Source of the DNA: a virus
Reading direction: 5' to 3' (one strand)
DNA length: 51,600 nt
Virus record (IMG/VR): IMGVR_UViG_3300034101_003724
Location: 1-51,600 of that record
Each line of letters opens with the position of its first letter. The stretch's first letter is position 1. Under the pieces are notes generated by a model. The model saw only the letters and a list, made by a program, of their open reading frames with translations, was not told the origin of the DNA and did not search any database. Positions 23,958 to 35,232 of this stretch are shown one piece after another. The translations under genes and the position numbers were made by a program.

Positions 23958-24569
23958 ATGAACACCACCTTCGCCACCCGCACCCGTCCGTTCACCAGCC
24001 CGTATCCCATCGACAACATCCGTTCCGAGGCAGTCGCCAGCCGTGACCAGCGCAACCGCGCCCGCGCCGCACGCATCAAGTCCCTCGTCGCTGCCGCTCC
24101 CTCCGACAACAAGGACGAGTTCTACTGGACCATGATTTACGACCTCGAGGAAGCGCCGACCATGACCGCTCGCTCCATGCTGCTCGAGCACGGCATCATC
24201 CCCGTCCCGCCCCAGGAACTGGTCACCACCGCCGACACCCACGACGAGCTGTGGACCGTCATCGAGGCGCTCTCCCGCTGCGGCGTCTTCCTCATCAACA
24301 CCAACCACCTCTGCGACCGGGACCTCTACGCCCGTCTGTACTACCGCATCCTCGACGAGGAATGCCGTGCCATGCCGCCGTCCTGCGAGGCTGCCGAGTA
24401 CGTCGACTGCCTGCACCCGATGGATCTCCAGTATCCGCTCGGCAAGCAGATGCCGCAGCTCACCTCCGCTCCCGAACTCCAGCCCGCCGGCAACTACGCC
24501 CGTGGCCCGGAGTACAACGTCATCGGCGCGATCTGCGACCGGGACGATCACCTTCCCCGTCCCTGGTAA
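23958..24569 (+). CDS. Hypothetical protein downstream of DUF932
   Basis: 203 residues, ATG at 23958, two bases after the DUF932 stop, so probably cotranslated. An Arg/Ala-rich N-terminal region (VASRDQRNRARAARIKSLVA) is followed by a globular-looking domain with EFYWTMIYDLEEAPTMTARS, several cysteines (CGVFLINTNHLCDRD, EECRAMPPSCEAAEYVDC) and a Pro-rich end. The four cysteines near residues 135-155 might bind metal. No family was recognised. Confidence 0.7.
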   Translation: MNTTFATRTRPFTSPYPIDNIRSEAVASRDQRNRARAARIKSLVAAAPSDNKDEFYWTMIYDLEEAPTMTARSMLLEHGIIPVPPQELVTTADTHDELWTVIEALSRCGVFLINTNHLCDRDLYARLYYRILDEECRAMPPSCEAAEYVDCLHPMDLQYPLGKQMPQLTSAPELQPAGNYARGPEYNVIGAICDRDDHLPRPW

Positions 24570-24578
24570 CAACCTTAC

Positions 24579-24743
24579 GGGGGCAGGCCCGATTCTCTGA
24601 CGAGATGCCCAGGCACGTTGCCTGTCTCATGCGTCGGGACCTGCCCCCACCAAGCCACCTTGGACCAGCCCGTCGGCCGCGACCTGGTCCGCGTGGGGCG
24701 CACCGCAGATCCTCCGCCCGTACAGCGGAGGGAAGGTGCGTCC
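24579..24743 (+). ncRNA. Candidate structured RNA or DNA element: three consecutive stems
   Basis: The gap 24570-24894 holds no convincing gene but three nested stems. Stem 1: GGGGGCAGG (24579-24587) with CCTGCCCCC (24640-24648), extended by CCCGA/TCGGG across a bulged A, and an inner AGGCA/TGCCT. Stem 2: GGACCAG (24662-24668) with CTGGTCC (24684-24690). Stem 3: GGGCGCACC (24696-24704) with GGTGCGTCC (24735-24743, one G-T pair), enclosing CCTCCGC/GCGGAGG. It could be a small regulatory RNA, a long leader, an origin or a packaging element. No promoter or U-tract was clearly seen. Confidence 0.45.
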
Positions 24744-24894
24744 GTATCCCACAGCTACCCGTCCTCCTCTGAGCACCGTCGCCTCTGCTACTCCCTGCCG
24801 TGATATCCGCGCACAGTACGCACGCACACTACGGTCACCACGATAAGGCTCTGGCTGGTGGGGTACTATCATCACGTCCCGCGAAAGGACTCAC

Positions 24895-25527
24895 ATGCAA
24901 CGACCGCAAACCTACACCGGAGTTGGATCCCGAAAGACAACCCCGAAGCAACTTGCAATCATGAGAAGGATTGCACAAGTGTTTGCGGAAAGGGGATATC
25001 GACTCCGAACTGGCGATGCTGAGGGGGCGGACTCTGCATTTACTTCTGGTGCGCTTTCGCAATTGAAGCCTGAGCAATTGAAAGACCTGCTCCATGTATA
25101 TGTTGCGCACGATGCATACAAGTCTCTTCGGCCGTACGAGCGCAAGCCTGCAGCCGACATGATCGAAACCCTCATCAACCTTGCTCGCAAGTACCACCCG
25201 AACCCGTCTGCACTCAGCAGCAAGGCGTCGTGGTCGAGGGGTTCGCCGCTTGGATTGCAAGCACGCAACGCTCTTCAAATCGGAGGTGATCGGCTCAACG
25301 ATCCTTCTGATTTTGCGGTGATGGCATTCACGCCAGAGAACCAGCGCAGATTTGCCGGCGACCTTGGCGGTACGGGCCAAGCCTTCCGCATCGCAAAGTC
25401 AAAGGGAATCCCGGTCTTCGATCTCGACATGTCTGAAAAAGACTTGCTTGATCAACTTGCCCTATATAAGGGACCCCACTCAAGTCAACTTGAGAAGATG
25501 ATCGAGTACATCCTCCGCAACAGGTAA
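24895..25527 (+). CDS. SLOG/DprA-like Rossmann nucleotide-binding protein
   Basis: 210 residues, ATG at 24895 preceded by GCGAAAGGA. The N-terminus reads YTGVGSRKTTPKQLAIMRRI, then RGYRLRTGDAEGADSAF: the GxGSR and SGGAxGxD-type loops of the SLOG superfamily (DprA, LOG, TerA-type nucleotide binders). Near the C-terminus there is an ordered alpha/beta end (GTGQAFRIAKSKGIPVFDLD). Phage members may sense or process nucleotide-derived signals. Base composition is visibly more AT-rich and its codon choice differs from the preceding genes, so it may be a recent acquisition. A Chi-type motif lies just upstream (24854-24861). Confidence 0.8.
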   Translation: MQRPQTYTGVGSRKTTPKQLAIMRRIAQVFAERGYRLRTGDAEGADSAFTSGALSQLKPEQLKDLLHVYVAHDAYKSLRPYERKPAADMIETLINLARKYHPNPSALSSKASWSRGSPLGLQARNALQIGGDRLNDPSDFAVMAFTPENQRRFAGDLGGTGQAFRIAKSKGIPVFDLDMSEKDLLDQLALYKGPHSSQLEKMIEYILRNR

Positions 25528-25530
25528 CAC

Positions 25531-26205
25531 ATGCAACTCAACCTGCTCCCGGCCAAGCCCACCTGCGTGGGCTGCGATCTCCATTCCGGCGCCAAGAACG
25601 TTGGCATCCCCTCACGCCATCTCCCCACCAGCCTGCCCCCTGACTCGGCCAACCCCGTGGTCATCGTCATCGGCATGAACCCCGGCACGCAAGAGGACCG
25701 AGCAGGCGAGTGCTGGATCGGACCCTCGGGCCAGCTCCTTGCCGGGCCCTACCTCACCGGCTCGACCGTCTCGTCCCTCGCCACCGTCTACCTCTGCAAC
25801 GTGGCCCGATGCGTCTCGCCGGGCGGCAAGCCCAAGCCCGCGCACTATCGCACGTGCTTCACCAACACGTTGCTTGACATCACCACGATCCTGGACCATC
25901 ATCACGCCTCGCCTGCCCGTGCCATCCTGTGCGCCGGCGCAGACCCGGTCACCTACCTGTCCCGCACGTTCCAGAAGAAGGCCATGTCCCAGCAGGACGC
26001 GTTCCGTGCGCAAGGCATGTCCATCCCGACCCTCACACGCACGCACCTGTTCGCCACCTACCACCCGGCCGCAGTCCTGCGCGAGCCCGGCCTCATCCAT
26101 CCCGTCGCCGACCACCTCGCCCTGCTCCGGAACTTCCTGACCGGCGACCTGGCACGGCCCACCGCACCGCTCATCCGCACCCCGTTCCTCCCGAGGACCA
26201 CATGA
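25531..26205 (+). CDS. Family 4-type uracil-DNA glycosylase
   Basis: 224 residues, ATG at 25531. Four cysteines fit the iron-sulfur cluster pattern: C12 and C15 (CVGC), then C94 and C109, 15 residues apart. The catalytic loop reads GMNPGTQED (about residues 48-56), followed by GECWIGPSGQLL in place of the usual GxPFVGxAG, and a late YHPAAVL motif. The enzyme would remove uracil from DNA, either in repair of phage DNA or against uracil-containing competitors. The loop has Asn where many family 4 enzymes have Ala or Glu, so activity should not be assumed. Confidence 0.85.
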   Translation: MQLNLLPAKPTCVGCDLHSGAKNVGIPSRHLPTSLPPDSANPVVIVIGMNPGTQEDRAGECWIGPSGQLLAGPYLTGSTVSSLATVYLCNVARCVSPGGKPKPAHYRTCFTNTLLDITTILDHHHASPARAILCAGADPVTYLSRTFQKKAMSQQDAFRAQGMSIPTLTRTHLFATYHPAAVLREPGLIHPVADHLALLRNFLTGDLARPTAPLIRTPFLPRTT

Positions 26206-34574: not shown

Positions 34575-34775
34575 ATGACTCTTGAGCGAGACAACGTCGT
34601 GAAGCTGTCAGTCCGTGACTGGGCAGCCATCATCGGTCTGGTCATTGCGCTTGGCGGAGGAGTGCTTAGCGCCTTCATGCACCACGACAGGCTGCTCATG
34701 CGGGTCGTGACTCAGCAGGAATCCATCAATGAACGGCTGGACAAGATCGAGCGCCAGCTTGATCCTCGCAACTAG
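34575..34775 (+). CDS. Holin-like small membrane protein
   Basis: 66 residues, ATG at 34575 with AAGGAAC upstream. One transmembrane span (about residues 16-36, WAAIIGLVIALGGGVLSAF) is followed by a charged amphipathic helix (TQQESINERLDKIERQLD). Short phage proteins with one span and a coiled tail next to spanin genes are often holins or holin partners. The overlap with the downstream lipoprotein supports a lysis cassette. Confidence 0.65.
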   Translation: MTLERDNVVKLSVRDWAAIIGLVIALGGGVLSAFMHHDRLLMRVVTQQESINERLDKIERQLDPRN

Positions 34776-35232
34776 CCTCTGGCTGGTGGGGTGCAGCGAG
34801 CTCGCGAAGGTGAGCGAGAACGCGACGGCCATCCAGGCCGAGTCGCAGTCACTTATAGATCACGGGCGGATGGTGGGGGACAAGGAGGTGGTGACCCGTG
34901 CCGGACGCATCCACGATCTTGCTGCTGACATCCATGGTCGGATACCTCATCTGGAGGACAAGACCCCCGTTTGGTTATCCACCCTATGGTGGGCTGCGGC
35001 GGCAGTGGCACTCATCGCCGTCGCCGTCATCCTCTGGCAGACGGGCTTGGGCACGGCTGTCCGAGTCGCAATTGGCTGGCTGCCGCGCCGAAAGATCCAA
35101 GACGCGAACCTAGCCGCCGGCATGTTGGATCCAGATAAACCTGAGGATGCCCGCGAGTACGTCGCTGCGCGGCGGGCATCTGACCCCGAGTTCGACGCTG
35201 CGTGGCGACGTGTCCACAAGAAAGGTTCATAA
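34729..35232 (+). CDS. Unimolecular spanin-like lipoprotein
   Basis: 167 residues, ATG at 34729, overlapping the holin-like gene by 47 bases in another frame. The N-terminus has a lipoprotein signal (SSASLILATSLWLVGC) with lipobox LVGC and Cys22. A Ser at +2 predicts outer-membrane delivery. A helical periplasmic segment of about 60 residues follows, then a transmembrane span at 83-103 (WLSTLWWAAAAVALIAVAVI). Outer-membrane lipid plus inner-membrane span is the layout of u-spanins, which fuse the two membranes at lysis. The unusual part is the 64-residue cytoplasmic tail. LVG is encoded by a Chi-extended motif (34782-34789). Confidence 0.7.
   Translation: MNGWTRSSASLILATSLWLVGCSELAKVSENATAIQAESQSLIDHGRMVGDKEVVTRAGRIHDLAADIHGRIPHLEDKTPVWLSTLWWAAAAVALIAVAVILWQTGLGTAVRVAIGWLPRRKIQDANLAAGMLDPDKPEDAREYVAARRASDPEFDAAWRRVHKKGS

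Follow-up and report, generated by a model that had tools for sequence, protein, structure and literature searches.

The region studied here (24570-24894) is a gap of 325 nt in the window, the whole stretch of 51,600 nucleotides that was analysed. It sits within the early/replication module, in that half of a tailed-phage record where the genes run on the + strand. The genes recognisable in the record included a terminase, a primase, a family A polymerase, a uracil-DNA glycosylase (UDG), a Sak4-like gene and an exonuclease. Family A polymerase, primase and SSB-like genes formed the replication module around the gap, and the terminase gene was located far away, on the opposite strand. No DNA similarity was found among isolated phages and plasmids, and the isolated-phage collection gave neither a DNA match to the phage nor a protein match to gene A, which lies upstream of gene B.

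Gene B (23958-24569, + strand) directly precedes the gap and encodes an orphan protein of 203 amino acids, the reading frame of which was conserved in 20 IMG/VR loci. Searches of Pfam, PHROG and PDB revealed no relative of this protein; the single relative in BFVD came from an uncultured phage, and neither profile nor fold comparison gave an informative match (mean pLDDT of the AF2 model, 75.7). At the other end, a short leader recognised from its sequence (24867-24894, + strand) carries a GAAAGGA ribosome-binding site for gene C (24895-25527, + strand), which is DprA-like (PHROG 768, E 3e-34; Pfam DNA_processg_A, sub-threshold). Gene D (25531-26205, + strand) was assigned to the UDG superfamily by Pfam (UDG, E 3e-12). 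Synteny showed gene D as the next gene after the gap in most close relatives. The B-D gap of L002 and L004 was about 320 bp and aligned to the gap of the window at 90-96%; relative to these two, gene C is an insertion in front of gene D, and tblastn did not find it in the related loci. The same slot was occupied by NADAR-domain genes in L008 (6975-7430) and L014 (6701-7153), and the gene of L008 was preceded by a leader similar to that of the window, both reading CGTCCCGC-GAAAGGA. These cargo genes are possibly nucleotide or NAD-related counter-defence genes.

The gap itself held no gene. ARAGORN found no tRNA or tmRNA gene in it or anywhere else in the 51.6-kb window, and six-frame reading of the relatives did not find a constant frame, which upholds the view of the earlier note that no convincing gene is present. 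One invariant DNA word fell in all three frames among the phages, where it would read ARISRQG, ADITAGS or VRGYHGR, and a coding region was therefore ruled out. A second RNA in the A-B gap of the relatives was also considered and rejected; that gap holds a small gene.

Fold, covariation and strand

The predicted RNA consists of a series of domains, each closed by itself and connected to the next by a short linker: domain I, a variable hairpin (IIx), domains IIa and/or IIb, and a constant core, domain III. The earlier note had described three stems in a gene-free gap. Folding recovered all of them, at 24579-24648, 24662-24690 and 24696-24743, but the description was understated, since a fourth domain (III, 24744-24866) had been overlooked. 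Compared with dinucleotide-preserving shuffles, the whole 325 nt scored z -3.5 when folded as the + strand and -1.25 when folded as the - strand. The first stem alone reached z -4.4 and the second and third together -3.9, while the folding energy of domain III alone was unremarkable (z -1.4).

Domain I (24579-24648, + strand) starts with an outer helix of 9 bp (24579-24587/24640-24648), followed by an A bulge and a second helix of 5 bp (24588-24592/24634-24638). An asymmetric internal loop, UUCUCUGACGAG / GCG, was nearly invariant across the alignment and leads to an inner helix (24605-24608/24627-24630) topped by an apical hairpin. The domain is thus a single long helix and not a cloverleaf; together with the empty ARAGORN result this excluded a tRNA or tmRNA, as the earlier note had judged for its first stem. 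The ACCA that the note had pointed out after this stem is not a tRNA end and belongs to a conserved single-stranded linker (24649-24657, + strand; ACCAAGCCA / ACCAAACCA), which was near-invariant in alignment A1.

Domain IIx (24662-24690, + strand), recognised from the folds and from the sequences of relatives, is a variable hairpin, GGACCAG...CTGGTCC in the window, and unrelated hairpins took its place in relatives, as in the folds of L036 and L011. Domain IIa (24696-24743, + strand) consists of a 9-bp helix, a conserved internal loop containing AGATC, and an inner hairpin. Other phages carry in this slot domain IIb, a three-way junction, and L007 carries both.

Domain III (24744-24866, + strand) was the most conserved domain. 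Its closing helix (24744-24757/24852-24866) pairs GUAUCCCaCAGCUA / UGGCUGGuGGGGUAC, its conserved parts included CCTCTGAGC, GCCTCTG and GATAAGGCTC, and its core hairpin (24793-24816), in which a palindromic GAUAUC is present, surrounds the invariant CCCTGCCGTGATATCCGCGCACAG. The Chi octamer GCTGGTGG (24854-24861, + strand), pointed out earlier as a motif, lies in the 3' strand of the closing helix. It was judged incidental: the window holds 38 copies on both strands, and the octamer was broken in one relative (L049, GCTGGCGG) in which the helix was kept and its bulged U alone differed. A TACTAT in front of the next gene, also noted earlier, was not conserved in the relatives, and no sigma-70-like site was recognised. 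A possible switch, in which the closing helix would instead pair GGGG/CCCC with the region of the ribosome-binding site, was dropped because L014 lacks this pairing. Elsewhere in the window, the 3' strand of domain III recurred with two mismatches (CCTCTGGCTGGTGGGGTG) at 34774-34793, inside the ORF 34729-35232; the chance expectation for such a second match was 0.06.

Compensatory changes between homologues, whose absence the earlier note had named as the case against its proposal, were found in large number. In domain I, 95.7% of the cells paired among 10 sequences and 12 of the 21 pairs had changed on both sides, a count matched by none of 500 shuffles, and slid controls were only 32-50% paired. 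Domain IIa was 94.5% paired, with both sides changed in 8 of 14 pairs; this was equalled in 4 of 500 shuffles, and the covariation score in none of 500. Domain IIb was 100% paired in the relatives. In domain III, 98.5% of the cells were paired against 28-46% in the slid controls, and the covariation was sparse (3 pairs changed on both sides) because the sequence is so conserved. All these counts come from few and related sequences, several of them on contigs that are fragments, so that cells are not independent events; relatedness is ignored by the shuffles and retained by the slid controls. In all four alignments together, G-U pairs outnumbered A-C mismatches by 39:6, which indicates that the + strand is the RNA. 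Compensatory substitutions on one strand and the lack of a coding frame, both observed here, are the general test for a structured phage noncoding RNA. The existence of such an RNA of ~290 nt, predicted on the + strand of the gap, is well supported.

Relatives, linkage to gene B and domain exchange

Once near-identical contigs were collapsed, the RNA occurred in IMG/VR phages in about a dozen distinct versions and in two much diverged ones (L016 and L017). In the latter two the closing helix had another sequence (CCCCACCAGCUAG/CUAGUUGGUGGGG), but the pairing was complete. A profile search with gene B returned 20 relatives, and all 20 came from contigs with the RNA directly after gene B, two distant ones with a diverged counterpart. 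The region after gene B was still structured in the most distant relatives (z -4.9 in L017, -6.5 in L036 and -4.5 in L011), and their whole-region folds were chains of closed domains of the same kind as in the window. Two gene orders were seen in two clades, A-B-RNA-D...pol and A...D...B-RNA...pol. Gene D switches from one side of the B-RNA pair to the other between them, and B and the RNA remain together, a linkage that could in part be conserved synteny. The gene after the RNA varied: UDG in most, the DprA-like gene in the window, NADAR in L008 and L014, the polymerase in L035, and others. In the clade of the window, only about 25-30 nt separate the 3' end of the RNA from the next start codon.

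The core motifs of domain III were recovered in viral contigs. In 396 genomes from the phylum that includes Cryobacterium, gene B was not found; no genome is known to carry it that could serve as a positive control. The RNA core gave six matches in genome contigs, none of them with the remaining RNA. One, in a Cryobacterium shii contig (L125:1713-1751), shared 25 identical nt with the core (CACGATAAGGCTCTGGCTGGTGGGG) and lay antisense in a tyrosine-recombinase ORF; this match is probably due to chance, at a rough estimate of about 1e-3.

Further elements were observed in sister phages. After the RNA, seven loci (L023, L027, L029, L035, L036, L016 and L017; for example L035:1249-1305) had a second hairpin element, composed of CCTTTCTGC(CCAGC), a GC-rich covarying stem, a conserved ACGACGG loop and usually GCATGGT, followed by the next gene. 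This element was not found in the window. Another possible structured RNA, also absent from the window, was seen in two sister phages (L151:226-400, which is G008:C1:5425-5600, and L154:50-230 on the minus strand, from G010); it begins with CCTTTCTGCCC, contains CTAGCACGCGCTA and ACATAGACGTA, and had no match in Rfam. The contig G008:C1 (3300027763_000081) carried CATAGCAAACCTTTCTGCCCTGCGG... at both ends, near positions 63 and 50707, which suggests a direct repeat at the termini, as in a circularly permuted or complete genome.

Of the phage pairs compared, most shared a higher similarity in the RNA than in the protein gene next to it. L002 and L008 were 59% identical in gene B and 96% in domain III; L002 and L004 were 98.5% identical in gene B and 86% in domain III. 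The window and L029 shared 74% in gene B and 96% in domain III, with polymerases of about 33% protein identity. The sliding comparison of L002 with L008 rose in a step from mostly 50-65% in gene B to 90% in domain I, fell to about 45% in domain II and reached 92-97% in domain III. Domain I was missing from L011, L013 and L049, in which the core hairpin was replaced. As the identity of the RNA is uncoupled from that of the flanking genes, domains and loop alleles have been exchanged by recombination, and this domain swapping is established at the level of sequence comparison. The same comparison established the predicted structure, the + strand, the noncoding nature, the modularity, the linkage to gene B and strong selection.

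Mode of action and alternative explanations

No match at the gathering score was obtained for the window and five relatives against Rfam 15, including GOLLD, ROOL, OLE and all other families, and permissive scans gave chance-level matches only. The literature, in the part covered, held no description of the present RNA. GOLLD and ROOL are phage or prophage RNAs of unknown function that often lie near tRNA islands and form homo-oligomeric cages (PMC12286853). The present RNA resembles GOLLD as a phage-encoded structured RNA in which the 3' domain is constant and the 5' part varies more, and ROOL as an ornate phage-encoded RNA of unknown function (PMC12286853). In contrast, GOLLD often exceeds 800 nt and the ROOL example has about 659 nt, compared with about 290 nt here. 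The circumstances are similar, but the RNA was not filed with either family because both the Rfam match and the tRNA neighbourhood failed.

The best reading is a new modular phage noncoding RNA that is co-transcribed with gene B. It would be read from the + strand, directly downstream of gene B in the early/replication module transcript, and would act mainly in trans as a stable RNA binding a phage or host partner, possibly joined by protein B. The partner may be bound by the invariant unpaired motifs, with specificity coming from the loop alleles and the exchanged peripheral domains. We give the mainly trans-acting RNA about an even chance. Action in trans is favoured over action in cis because the upstream partner is constant, the downstream gene is variable, the domains are many and the alleles are exchanged. 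Among the four options of the earlier note (early regulatory RNA, anti-host RNA decoy, origin and packaging signal), action as an RNA from the + strand is supported by the covariation and the wobble asymmetry, and the position in the + strand replication module is consistent with an RNA of the early region. A conserved host target was sought with two core motifs, one from a loop and one from the 3' strand, in 119 genomes from the Cryobacterium phylum, which may not include the phage host; 2 and 3 of the genomes matched, and no match was recurrent. A more specific proposal is tentative, and we consider it somewhat unlikely: a new class of modular phage RNA would assemble with protein B into a ribonucleoprotein and serve in trans, either during infection or in conflicts of the phage with hosts or competing phages.

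The main rival is an element acting in cis, either a 3'-UTR or intercistronic structure for the stability or processing of the gene B mRNA, or a leader or riboswitch-like structure for translation of the following gene. The RNA always follows gene B and lies close to the next start codon in the clade of the window. No promoter or terminator belonging to it was recognised, so that a free RNA would have to be cut out of the mRNA of the operon; all of this suits a cis element. The inconstant downstream genes do not belong to one pathway and speak against a classical single-function riboswitch, and in the sister clade another hairpin element lies in between. The size and number of the domains go beyond the needs of a stability element, and the loop alleles recombine independently of gene B. 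We regard action in cis as a serious possibility that falls well short of an even chance.

An RNA-based replication origin, with the RNA as primer, is unlikely. Its model is the extrachromosomal mycobacterial prophages, which need noncoding RNAs beside parABS for replication, encoded where, as here, no gene is predicted on the strand concerned (PMC7157519). The position within the replication module would suit an origin, and the loop alleles, which switch from phage to phage, could represent compatibility types. However, the GC skew had no extremum at 24.6 kb, the region is GC-rich rather than AT-rich, parABS or an integrase was not noticed (no systematic search), and the mycobacterial RNAs serve prophage maintenance (PMC7157519).

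A recombination or insertion hotspot, in which palindromes act as DNA and cargo genes land alongside, would explain the DprA-like and NADAR genes at the same junction and the mosaic identity pattern. It is very unlikely, as the wobble asymmetry points to a + strand RNA, and a DNA exchange site would not be expected to keep unpaired loops conserved or to fold into several closed domains. Least probable, and highly so, is a packaging or virion-assembly signal, as RNA or DNA: a structured, phage-specific element has a precedent in the phi29 packaging RNA, a phage-encoded structured RNA of about 174 nt that oligomerises through loops, to which the palindromic GAUAUC offers a likeness, but that RNA lies at the genome end and the present one between two early genes, the terminase gene is distant and on the opposite strand, and the - strand folds much worse across the whole region.

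Only a small number of large structured phage RNAs are known, most of them with an unsolved function. The present locus indicates that a gene-dense phage genome can spend about 290 bases on one RNA. With gene B as a fixed protein neighbour, the natural absences of domain I, the swaps of IIa for IIb and the exchanges of alleles are ready-made genetic experiments, through which the function of the RNA is directly testable. If the RNA does form a ribonucleoprotein with B, its domains and loop alleles would have been shuffled between phages whose polymerases are about a third identical, and it would be an RNA counterpart of modular protein effectors.
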